Below, piece after piece: positions 20,640 to 24,590 of a stretch of DNA of 64,000 bases. The stretch's first letter is position 1; every line of letters begins with the position of its first letter. The notes beneath the pieces were generated by a model. It ran no database searches and was not told the DNA's origin. It was given only the letters and a program-made list of their open reading frames with translations. This stretch comes from Flavobacterium endoglycinae (GTDB lineage Bacteria; Bacteroidota; Bacteroidia; Flavobacteriales; Flavobacteriaceae). Both the position numbers and the translations under genes were made by a program. The stretch covers positions 2,007,001 through 2,071,000 of the forward strand of contig NZ_CP071448.1 of assembly GCF_017352115.1 (NCBI RefSeq). Direction: 5' to 3'.

Positions 20640-22667
20640 ATGAAAGTATTAGATTTTCCGTTAGTCAAGCTAACAATCAGTTTTATAATTGGTATTTTAA
20701 TTTCCTATTATTGTCATCCTTCTTTATCGATTGCCTTCAATATTTTAGGTTTTTCTACACTCTTATTTATCCTTTTCTATTTTTTAGCAAAACGCAATAA
20801 AAAGCAGATTCCTCTTTTCGGAATCAGTTCTAATTTGATTGCATTTTCGACAGGAATCTGTGTTCTTTTAATTCATACTGATAGTTTTGACAAACTGAAT
20901 TACAGCCATTTTCAAAAAGCATTTGACGAACCGCATGTTTTGACTTTTACTTTACGCGAAAAACTCAAAAGCAATGATTATAATGATCGTTATACAGCGA
21001 TTGTAAACAATATCGATCAACATTTTATGAGAGGTAAAATAATCGTAAATGTTCAAAAAGACAGTACTTCCAATTCGTTAATTATCGGAAACATAATTCG
21101 AGTTAAAACTGTTTTACAGCGAACGCCTCCCAGCAAAAATCCAAGTCAGTTTGACTACAGCAGATATTTGGCCGACAAACAAATTTATGCTCAGGTATTC
21201 TGTAAAAAATCTGAAATAACAATAAGTAAACACATAAAAAAAGACATTTGGTATTACTCTGGACGTCTGCATGCTTTGATTTTAAAAAACCTCGAAAAAT
21301 CAAATTTTAATCCTGAAGAAATGAATGTTGCGCTTGCTTTAATACTCGGCCAGCAACAAGAAATCGCAGCTGATATTATTAAAGATTACCAATATTCTGG
21401 AGCTACACATGTTTTATCGGTTTCAGGATTACATGTTGGTTTTATAATGCTTTTTATAATGTTTATTCTAAAGCCAATTCCAAATACACGAAAAGGTTCT
21501 GCAATAAAACTGACTTCCATTTTAATCTCATTAGCCGGTTTTGCAGTGATTTCAGGATTATCACCTTCTGTTCTGCGATCTGTGGTTATGTTCTCATTTG
21601 TAGCTATTGGAAATCATTTACGCAGAAGCGGTAACATTTACCATACTTTATTGGTTTCAATTTTATTGATACTTTTATTTGAACCTTACTTTCTATTTGA
21701 TGTTGGATTTCAGTTAAGCTATTTAGCTTTATTTTTCATAGTCTGGCTGCAGCCTGTACTTGCACAAATCTGGACTCCAAAAAACAAAATAGCTATTTAT
21801 CTCTGGAATGCTCTAACGGTTTCTTTTGCGGCCCAAATAGGCACTTTACCTTTGTGTTTGTATTATTTCCATCAATTTCCAGGATTGTTTTTTGTAACGA
21901 ATATTATCATTCTACCTGTTTTATCGTTTATCATGATTGCTGGAATAATCGTTATGCTGATTGCTATTTTCACCAATCCTCCTTTATTATTGGTTACTAT
22001 ATTTGAAAAAAGCATTTTCATTTTAAACAAAATGATTCATTATGTAGCTTCATTTGAATCATTTGTTATTCAAGATATCGGTTTTAATTTCTATTATTTG
22101 ATTTCACTCTATCTCGTTATTATTACAGTGACAATTGGTTTCAAAAAACCAAATTTCAGAATCATAATAGTAAGTCTTCTGTCTATTATCTTATTTCAAT
22201 TATCGTTAATTTACACTAAAAAAGAGCTGTCAGATCAAACTGAATTAATTGTTTATAATGCCAAGAAAAGTACTCTGATATCAATGAGAAAAGGGCAAAA
22301 CATAACGCTTTTTACAAATGATACTAAAAAAGAAAAAGAAAACATTCTTAACTCTTATCTAGTTGGCAGTTTTAGTACGATCAGTCAAACGAAAATTATT
22401 AAAAATACTTTGTATTTCAATACTCAAAAAATACTTATAATTGACAGCAGTGGCATTTACGAAAACAAAATCGTACCGGATATCTTAATTCTGACACAGT
22501 CTCCAAAATTAAATCTGGATAGACTTTTAAATCAAATACATCCCAAAATGATAATTGCAGATGCTTCAAATTCTTATTCCATTCAAAAAGTATGGAAAGA
22601 AAGCTGTTTGAAAAAAAACATCCCTTTCCACGCTACTGCCGAAAAGGGATTTTATAAACTGAATTAA
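20640..22667 (+). CDS. comEC: ComEC/Rec2 family DNA-uptake channel protein
   Basis: Order: several N-terminal membrane helices, a DUF4131-like soluble OB region (about 95-200), the competence domain with many helices (about 228-520) carrying ATHVLSVSGLHVGFIM, and a short C-terminal cytoplasmic tail (about 530-675). The tail occupies the place of the usual metallo-beta-lactamase domain, but the HxHxDH metal motif is not visible, so it looks degenerate. It is predicted to carry single-stranded DNA across the inner membrane. Its last ~60 bases also hold, on the opposite strand, the terminator of the convergent thioredoxin-like gene, and a diverged copy of this tail occurs at 23311-23370. Confidence 0.93.
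   Translation: MKVLDFPLVKLTISFIIGILISYYCHPSLSIAFNILGFSTLLFILFYFLAKRNKKQIPLFGISSNLIAFSTGICVLLIHTDSFDKLNYSHFQKAFDEPHVLTFTLREKLKSNDYNDRYTAIVNNIDQHFMRGKIIVNVQKDSTSNSLIIGNIIRVKTVLQRTPPSKNPSQFDYSRYLADKQIYAQVFCKKSEITISKHIKKDIWYYSGRLHALILKNLEKSNFNPEEMNVALALILGQQQEIAADIIKDYQYSGATHVLSVSGLHVGFIMLFIMFILKPIPNTRKGSAIKLTSILISLAGFAVISGLSPSVLRSVVMFSFVAIGNHLRRSGNIYHTLLVSILLILLFEPYFLFDVGFQLSYLALFFIVWLQPVLAQIWTPKNKIAIYLWNALTVSFAAQIGTLPLCLYYFHQFPGLFFVTNIIILPVLSFIMIAGIIVMLIAIFTNPPLLLVTIFEKSIFILNKMIHYVASFESFVIQDIGFNFYYLISLYLVIITVTIGFKKPNFRIIIVSLLSIILFQLSLIYTKKELSDQTELIVYNAKKSTLISMRKGQNITLFTNDTKKEKENILNSYLVGSFSTISQTKIIKNTLYFNTQKILIIDSSGIYENKIVPDILILTQSPKLNLDRLLNQIHPKMIIADASNSYSIQKVWKESCLKKNIPFHATAEKGFYKLN
22611..22650 (-). 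terminator. Terminator embedded in the comEC 3' end
   Basis: Read on the minus strand, ATCCCTTT (22643-22650) pairs with AAAGGGAT (22620-22627) and is followed by a run of eight T (22618-22611). It lies about 20 bases after the stop of the convergent thioredoxin-like gene, inside comEC codons. Confidence 0.75.
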
Positions 22668-22670
22668 ATT

Positions 22671-23120
22671 TTATTCTGGATTTAATATCTGATTACAATC
22701 TGTTATCCAAGCTTTTGCACCTCCCGAACTATAGGAAAGTTTTCCCAATGTATTGAAATTGGTTTTTCCTTTTCGTATAACTGCATTTGCAAAACAGACT
22801 TCAGGTAAATCTACAACCCCAAAAGCATTTTTCAACATAGCATTCTGTTCTCGCACTTCGCTGGCAATAGCCATATCAGATAAGTCGAGCTTGACTAAAA
22901 TAACATTTTTACGGGACCATTTTTCAAAATCAGCAGTTTTAAACACTTCATTCTGCAAATTTTCTGATGCACCCGCACCAGTGAACAAAATAAGCATCGG
23001 TTTTCGTTCTTCATTACTGATTGCAATTGCATCAGTCAGATTGGTTTTCCATTCGAGATTCTGGGATTTCATCAGGAAGGTTACAAATAAAAATAGTAGA
23101 ATGGGTAGTTTTCGGCTCAT
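22671..23120 (-). CDS. Secreted thioredoxin-fold protein without CxxC, copy 1
   Basis: Signal peptide (1-19, KSQ) followed by a thioredoxin fold related to the gene at 24066: TNLTDAIAISNEERKPMLIL, then LKNAFGVVDLPEVCF. Where the active paralogue has TGSDWCGWCIRLQNEV this protein has TGAGASENLQNEV, so both active-site cysteines and three residues of the loop are missing. The cis-Pro region is kept (DLPEVC), now followed by a cysteine (Cys109). It cannot be a normal disulfide oxidoreductase; a binding or chaperone role, or single-cysteine chemistry, is possible. About two thirds of its residues match copy 2. It ends three bases from the comEC stop. Confidence 0.85.
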   Translation of the reverse strand: MSRKLPILLFLFVTFLMKSQNLEWKTNLTDAIAISNEERKPMLILFTGAGASENLQNEVFKTADFEKWSRKNVILVKLDLSDMAIASEVREQNAMLKNAFGVVDLPEVCFANAVIRKGKTNFNTLGKLSYSSGGAKAWITDCNQILNPE

Positions 23121-23310
23121 AAATTAATTGGTTTTAGTTAAGTTAATGAAACTAATTTAACATAAAACCAACACCGAACAATGTACTTTAATACAAATAG
23201 TTACGTAAAACATGCATTAAAATGAATTTGATTTTTTAAGCCCAAAAATTTAAAAAAAATGAAAATTTTACCCCATTTAAATAATAAATGTATAATACAC
23301 ATTTAAGTTT

Positions 23311-23370
23311 GTTTTGAAAAAATATCCCTTTCCAAATAATTTTGAAAAGGGATTCTACAAATTAAACTAA
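23311..23370 (+). pseudogene. Vestigial 3' end of a comEC gene
   Basis: The frame ending at the TAA 23368-23370 reads VLKKYPFPNNFEKGFYKLN. The true ComEC ends CLKKNIPFHATAEKGFYKLN. The final eight residues and the stop are identical in protein, but five bases differ, all silently (TTT/TTC, TAT/TAC, CTG/TTA, AAT/AAC). The ATCCCTTT and AAAGGGAT hairpin arms are identical, while the loop between them has diverged and is one base shorter. No other part of comEC is recognisable upstream, where the frame is closed at 23293-23295. The fragment lies behind thioredoxin-like copy 2 exactly as intact comEC lies behind copy 1. Confidence 0.75.
23317..23353 (-). terminator. Terminator of thioredoxin-like copy 2, within the comEC remnant
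   Basis: On the minus strand ATCCCTTT (23346-23353) pairs with AAAGGGAT (23324-23331) and six T follow. It has the same arms as the terminator in the real comEC end at 22611-22650. Confidence 0.75.
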
Positions 23371-23396
23371 GAAACTTAATTTAAATTTATTGGTTT

Positions 23397-23849
23397 TTAT
23401 TCGCTTGGATGCAAAATATTATTTGACTCAGCGATCCACGCTTTGGCACCGCCAGGTTTATAAGCTATTTTTCCAAGGGCGCTAAAAGTAGTTTTGTTTT
23501 TTCGTATGGAAGCAATTGCATAACATACTTCAGGCAGATCCTGAACTCCAAATGCATTCTTCAATCTAATATTTTGCTCTTTATCTCCATCTGAAGCTGT
23601 AGCATCAGACAAATCTAATTTCACAAGAATAACATTATCTCGTGACCAGACTGCAAAATCTGGTGTTTTAAAGATTTCATTTTGGAGATTTTCTGATACA
23701 CCTGAGGCAGTGAATAAGATTAACATTGGTTTTCTTTCTTCATTACTAATGGCGATTGCATCTGTCATATTTGTTCGCCAGGCAAGGGTTTGTGCCTGCA
23801 TGAAAAATGAACCTAAAAAAAACAGTAGGATAAGTAATTTTTTAGTCAT
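23397..23849 (-). CDS. Secreted thioredoxin-fold protein without CxxC, copy 2
   Basis: Closest relative is copy 1 at 22671: the same signal peptide type, identical TDAIAISNEERKPMLILFT block and the same deletion of the active-site loop (TASGVSENLQNEI). The cysteine after the cis-Pro region is kept (DLPEVCY), which suggests it matters, because it is the only cysteine shared by both copies and absent from the active paralogue. The region just upstream of the start (ATTGGTTTT… AATTAACATAA) also matches that of copy 1, so the promoter was duplicated too. Predicted periplasmic; function unknown. Confidence 0.85.
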   Translation of the reverse strand: MTKKLLILLFFLGSFFMQAQTLAWRTNMTDAIAISNEERKPMLILFTASGVSENLQNEIFKTPDFAVWSRDNVILVKLDLSDATASDGDKEQNIRLKNAFGVQDLPEVCYAIASIRKNKTTFSALGKIAYKPGGAKAWIAESNNILHPSE

Positions 23850-24010
23850 ATATAATTGGTTTTTGGTTAGTATAGCATGACGAAATTAACATAATATTTT
23901 AATTATCCAAATTATATAACTATAAAAAATACATTATATGTTTTTTTATTTACAAATAAATAACGAAATCACAATTGAATCTTTTTATTGAAAACTTTTT
24001 CTTATTAAAC

Positions 24011-24041
24011 AAAAAAACTCCTCACATTTCTGTGAGGAGTT
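24011..24041 (-). terminator. Terminator of the active thioredoxin gene
   Basis: AACTCCTCACA (24016-24026) pairs with TGTGAGGAGTT (24031-24041); on the minus strand a T run follows. Confidence 0.9.
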
Positions 24042-24065
24042 CCCTTAATAATTTTATCTATTTTT

Positions 24066-24533
24066 TTAAGACTTTTTCGGATGAACAATTCCTTCTGCGA
24101 CAGTTAACCATGCTGATGGACCGCCGGCAACATATCCTGTTTTTCCAAGCCCTTTAAAGTTGATTTTTCCATCTTTAGATTCTGCACTTGTAAAAAACAC
24201 CGTTGGAAATCCCTGAATACCAAAAGCTTGCTGCAATTCGTTATTCTGATTTTTTAACTCCGGAGTCTGCGGAACGCTTCTTGGGTAATCCAATTCTACT
24301 AAAACAACATTATCAGAAGCCCATTTTTTAAATTCAGCAGTTTTTAAAACTTCATTCTGAAGACGAATGCACCATCCGCACCAGTCGCTTCCTGTAAAAA
24401 ACATCAACATTGGTTTTTGTTCTTTATTACTTACATTGATCGCTTCACGAACATCAGTATACCATTTTAATTCCTGAGCCTGAGTAGCAAAAGCACCAGC
24501 TATAAAAAAAGCTATTAGTAATATTTTCTTCAT
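24066..24533 (-). CDS. Secreted thioredoxin family protein with intact CGWC
   Basis: The ATG at 24531-24533 gives a clean signal peptide (MKKILLIAFFIAGAFATQAQ); the upstream in-frame ATG would add a charged extension. The active site is TGSDWCGWCIRLQNEV (Cys52, Cys55) and the cis-Pro loop is GIQGFPTVFF. It is a periplasmic disulfide reductase/oxidase of the thioredoxin_7-like type. It is the third of three paralogues in a row and the only one with catalytic cysteines, so it probably represents the ancestral form. The peptide-transport operon ends 57 bases upstream on the same strand. Confidence 0.92.
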   Translation of the reverse strand: MKKILLIAFFIAGAFATQAQELKWYTDVREAINVSNKEQKPMLMFFTGSDWCGWCIRLQNEVLKTAEFKKWASDNVVLVELDYPRSVPQTPELKNQNNELQQAFGIQGFPTVFFTSAESKDGKINFKGLGKTGYVAGGPSAWLTVAEGIVHPKKS

Positions 24534-24590
24534 AATGCGTTTATTTTTAAGCAAATTTAAACAAAAATCAAATTGAAAATACAGTTAGTC

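Follow-up and report, generated by a model that had tools for sequence, protein, structure and literature searches.

In the window, by which we mean the whole 64,000-nucleotide stretch of Flavobacterium endoglycinae DNA analysed here, a comEC gene on the plus strand converges with three minus-strand genes for thioredoxin-like proteins (t1, t2 and t3), and a short remnant of the comEC 3' end lies between t1 and t2. The features are as follows:

20640–22667, plus strand: comEC (675 aa; Pfam Competence, E = 3.6e-56, and DUF4131), the single match in the genome
22611–22650, minus strand: predicted t1 terminator inside comEC codons (hairpin 22620–22650, T-run 22611–22618; −15.3 kcal/mol)
22671–23120, minus strand: t1, a thioredoxin-like copy without CxxC and a derivative of the t2 group
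23311–23370, plus strand: comEC 3' remnant, in frame LKKYPFPNNFEKGFYKLN and then stop, by direct reading
23317–23353, minus strand: predicted t2 terminator in the remnant (hairpin 23324–23353, T-run 23317–23322; −14.9 kcal/mol, 13 pairs)
23355–23385, minus strand: frozen 31-base element, TTTAAATTAAGTTTCTTAGTTTAATTTGTAG on that strand, in the presumed t2 3' UTR and recognized by its conservation
23397–23849, minus strand: t2, a thioredoxin-like copy without CxxC
23850–23924, minus strand: stretch upstream of t2, conserved among relatives (within the clade, pairs differ at 0.131 of sites) and presumed to hold the promoter
24066–24536, minus strand: t3, the oldest copy, a thioredoxin-like gene with WCGWC (Pfam Thioredoxin_2, E = 5.9e-13; Thioredoxin_7, 7.7e-13)

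The live comEC ends in GAAAAAAAACATCCCTTTCCACGCTACTGCCGAAAAGGGATTTTATAAACTGAATTAA. The remnant reads GTTTTGAAAAAATATCCCTTTCCAAATAATTTTGAAAAGGGATTCTACAAATTAAACTAA, with an open frame that gives a second EKGFYKLN and stop. A search of the genome with comEC returned one match only, so comEC is single-copy. Among the thioredoxin-like proteins, WCxxC is found in 103 of 103 t3 copies, CxxC in none of the 109 t1- or t2-type copies, and t1 and t2 themselves gave no Pfam match at 0.001. Judged by their residues, therefore, t1 and t2 are duplicated thioredoxin-like proteins that would be incapable of CxxC redox chemistry. Both cysteines have been lost from t1, t2 and all of the orthologues read, and yet these proteins are conserved; t3 keeps its WCGWC. 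The sequence ahead of t2 (23850–23924) is also highly conserved between species, with GACGAAATTAACATAATATTTTAATT.TCCAA as one example, and looks like a minus-strand promoter of the Flavobacterium type with something more besides.

The two predicted terminators share the same arms, ATCCCTTT/AAAGGGAT, at 22620–22627/22643–22650 in the live tail and at 23324–23331/23346–23353 in the remnant. The original prediction had described these arms as identical and the T-runs as eight and six bases long, and direct reading agrees (the runs appear on the plus strand as A-runs at 22611–22618 and 23317–23322). Each site combines a stable stem-loop containing G+C, an adjoining T-run and a position near a gene stop, the distance from stop to terminator being 20 bases for t1 and 43 for t2. 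A pattern scan also picked up this minus-strand hairpin of the remnant, with 13 pairs. We then examined the comEC 3' region of 107 Flavobacterium genomes, including that of the window, and counted terminators by folding with ViennaRNA (the source of the energies above), as a scan that asked for perfect stems proved overly strict, passing 35 of the 49 remnants and 96 of the 107 live tails. At ΔG ≤ −9, a minus-strand terminator was predicted in every one of the 49 remnants and of the 107 live tails, compared with 1 of 428 internal comEC windows and 7 of 294 shuffled remnants. The structure in the remnant is thus more than chance, because relatives have it in the corresponding position and it is rare in both the shuffles and the internal windows. 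On the plus strand, even under a laxer −4 rule, terminators were predicted in only 3/49 remnants, as against 49/107 live tails. Folding and relatives together support the earlier proposals that the terminator of t1 is written within comEC codons and that the fragment behind t2 is a comEC 3' end retained as a terminator. We infer that both hairpins would stop transcription in the cell.

It appears that the last 20 or so codons of the live comEC have a dual use, encoding protein on the plus strand (KK.IPFH...EKG.Y) and forming the predicted intrinsic terminator of the convergent gene on the minus strand. The choice of codons in the stem is far from that of the rest of the same gene: AAG (Lys) is used in 99 of 105 genomes against a background of 0.136, ATC (Ile) in 104 against 0.182, CCT (Pro) in 99 against 0.314 and GGA (Gly) in 104 against 0.457. 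The His codon on the loop side is split 54/51 among the same 105 genomes. The rare codons of the live tails would therefore seem to serve to hold the stem. Furthermore, in distant comECs of about 30% identity, the stem survives changes of residue, as in IPFY...KMGYY with arms ATCCCATTTTA/TAAAATGGGAT and IPYHDM..TKG with arms TCCCTTA/TAAGGGA. Other genera of the family often have CTCCC/GGGAG as the stem, with Ile to Leu and Phe/Tyr to Ala having changed together. In one live comEC (G199, locus L098, about 1991–2044), the A-run is one A shorter, which shifts the frame near the end of the gene and leaves the hairpin intact; this is either a sequencing error or real.

A stem kept in nearly every comEC read, including those of distant species and of other genera in which our queries did not always find a downstream thioredoxin-like gene, might instead work for comEC itself, as mRNA or as protein, and be used by the facing gene only incidentally. 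We consider this very improbable. It is on the minus side that the long T-run lies, with the stop of the convergent gene a few bases away; the synonymous sites of the stem are fixed, not the residues alone; and remnants detached from comEC retain the hairpin with compensating changes. In addition, two loci lack the in-gene stem: L171, in which we found no thioredoxin-like gene, and L169, in which a separate hairpin follows the comEC stop.

In the remnants, the pair types of the stem are varied from pair four towards the loop, whereas live stems are nearly constant until the loop itself. A hairpin between t1 and t2 is always present, most often within recognizable comEC letters in the case of the F. 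johnsoniae-type clade. Between the remnant hairpin and the t2 stop are 31 bases (23355–23385), half of them former comEC codons and half former flank, which in this clade are more constrained than the synonymous sites of t2. In 20 genomes of the clade, for which the motif was not a criterion of selection (three more, missed by the strict stem scan, were omitted), the proportion of differing sites is 0.113 between the hairpin and the t2 stop and 0.451 at the four-fold sites of t2, with 0.385 for the spacer before the remnant and 0.131 for the t2 upstream region. The last codons of t2 vary freely (synonymous difference about 0.47), and therefore the conserved block begins sharply after the gene. 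A 25-base core, with up to two mismatches allowed, was found in 26 of 399 genomes and was exact in 25; the full 31 bases occur exactly in 29 of 80 named loci, F. johnsoniae CI04 included, these loci having been fetched separately and overlapping in part with the 399 genomes. Some members of the clade (G008, G053, G054 and G108) have lost the element, and a sister clade has a different version of it that is also conserved.

The near absence of intermediates (25 of the 26 core matches being exact) could also suggest that these bases are unselected and were recently spread by recombination or conversion. This too is very unlikely. The element occurs once in this genome, which makes conversion from another copy unlikely, and in the same genomes the adjoining t2 codons and spacer differ at 0.38–0.47 of sites, which excludes a recent spread of the region. 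If the element is selected, what might it do? An Rfam search returned nothing at the gathering score. The segment is conserved and ends in a predicted intrinsic terminator, as expected of a small RNA derived from a 3' UTR, and we take such a small RNA or a site for protein binding as candidates. We suppose that it acts in RNA. More specifically, comEC codons, stop and flank may have become a non-coding RNA element, either a 3'-UTR element of t2 or a 3'-UTR-derived small RNA, but we put this forward only tentatively.

The history of the locus can be followed across the genus. The convergent comEC–thioredoxin pair, which the original prediction expected in other genomes, is present throughout the 107 genomes read. 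In about 47 of these comEC faces t3 alone; 17 have one extra copy beside comEC, 37 have t1, t2 and t3, and six have a fourth copy. The added copies invariably lie next to comEC. In the tree, the 47 t1-type copies group as a single clade (local support 0.969) inside the t2 copies. The copies in relatives stand head to tail, the outgroup state is unduplicated and the neighbouring fragment is homologous to the live comEC end, all of which are marks of tandem duplication. A remnant or decayed terminator is found at the same position in more than 40 related genomes, with position, letters and flank shared; as had been proposed, the duplication is not recent. In four genomes (G103, G367, G313 and G199) tblastn with comEC matches the remnant directly (about 54–69 bases, 34–39 bits), and in the most decayed ones (G091, G108 and G053) homology to comEC rests on position more than on letters.

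We propose that the unit of duplication would begin about 60–75 bases before the comEC stop and run through the facing gene and its promoter, so that each tandem duplication would place a new copy on the comEC side and leave a comEC 3' scrap between the copies. After the duplication, the live comEC codons would stop t1 and the scrap at 23311–23370 would stop t2. Released from coding, the scrap could then let its hairpin drift while pairing was maintained, and the piece between the hairpin and the t2 stop would have become the strongly conserved, presumed 3'-UTR element. The duplication series, the orthology of the remnants, the codon bias, the conservation of the stem and the frozen element can all be read directly from the letters of these genomes. 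The account as a whole, in which a dual-use comEC tail was copied with the facing gene in an old tandem duplication and the scrap was kept as a terminator, is in our view very probably correct.

The presence of t1 does not match the comEC tree perfectly, as G232, G257 and the G060 group are without it, and losses or transfers must therefore be added to the series. In one genome (G263, locus L108), t1 is nested among the t1 copies of the window's relatives and comEC groups with species that have no t1; gain of this t1 by horizontal transfer is possible. Three genomes outside the clade and within the 17 (G311, locus L158; G335, L160; G309, L163) have a separate, low-scoring t2-like copy beside comEC. 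The gap to t3 is short in all three, with no obvious comEC-like hairpin in it, and the extra copy is apparently a parallel duplication. The terminator of t3 is unlike comEC in this genome (ACTCC...GGAGT, window positions 24010–24046); in G060, G066, G291 and G232 it starts with AAAAATCC and ends with GGATT. It may be a still older comEC scrap, from the t3-to-t2 duplication, that is too decayed to be recognized as such.

Direct reading upheld the earlier statement that the last seven codons of the live comEC and the remnant have five base differences (TTT/TTC, TAT/TAC, CTG/TTA and AAT/AAC), all of them silent. However, the conclusion drawn from them, that the fragment had been imported or had belonged to a full second comEC, is not supported, as the same letters occur in the live comEC of relatives. 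In F. plurextorum (G265), F. oncorhynchi and strain YO12, which have no t1, the live comEC ends in GGGATTCTACAAATTAAACTAAGAAAA, the letters of the remnant plus its flank. Whether or not t1 was lost there, these shared letters would be the old comEC/t2 boundary; the silent differences arose because the comEC of this genome changed codons and the remnant kept the ancestral ones. G265 is nested among t1-bearing species in the comEC tree, and for that reason loss of t1 is most likely, probably by recombination between the comEC tail and the remnant, which would have returned the remnant to coding service. The other relatives without t1 could have lost it in the same way, through recombination between the comEC tail and the scrap. 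A closer allele in other species, which the original prediction had asked for, does exist, but shared ancestry explains it and a foreign origin does not follow. Thus, although the five silent differences, those closer alleles and the chance that some t1 copies (as in G263) have moved between species might favour a fragment brought in from a different strain or species, or what is left of a complete second comEC, we regard this reading as very improbable and have rejected it, since remnants are orthologous and occupy one position in over 40 genomes, the t1 copies are one clade, the genome has one comEC, no longer comEC piece was found anywhere in the arrays read, and the closer alleles belong to close relatives that retain the ancestral boundary in their live comEC.

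The arrangement with an old comEC scrap as terminator has parts in common with several known systems. Intrinsic terminators, including bidirectional ones, are found at convergent (tail-to-tail) genes (TransTermHP study, PMC1852404; Ju et al. 2019, as cited in PMC8060035). As in those cases, a hairpin and T-run lie here where two convergent genes meet. However, the hairpin is wholly in the codons of the facing gene, it is strongly one-sided in the remnants, it constrains both the codon choice and the residues of ComEC, and a duplicated non-coding copy of it exists. Similarly, the locus resembles other tandem duplications with partial copies of a neighbour in its head-to-tail copies and the truncated piece at the junction, but this piece is no decaying debris, for dozens of species keep the predicted terminator of the copy. 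Finally, set beside bacterial 3'-UTR elements and 3'-UTR-derived small RNAs (review, PMC7821165; Bacteroides small RNA map, PMC7366714), the frozen element is like them in being a conserved stretch that follows a gene with freely varying last codons and leads straight into an intrinsic terminator, and unlike them in having no Rfam match, in deriving half of its length from protein-coding letters and in being known here from sequence alone. Our literature search, with most subscription papers outside its reach, found general work on convergent and bidirectional terminators and nothing on the comEC–thioredoxin locus.

In summary, the locus offers a natural experiment in which one terminator exists in two copies, one locked by coding and the other freed, so that what dual use costs is visible in the letters: rare codons and covarying amino acids mark the live copy, and paired changes mark the drift of the free one. 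The locus also illustrates a route by which a gene can be duplicated beside its neighbour with the stop signal preserved, and how letters that once encoded protein can turn into an element that is non-coding and conserved. In the annotation of such arrays, comEC scraps are to be expected and should be regarded as more than mere pseudogenes.
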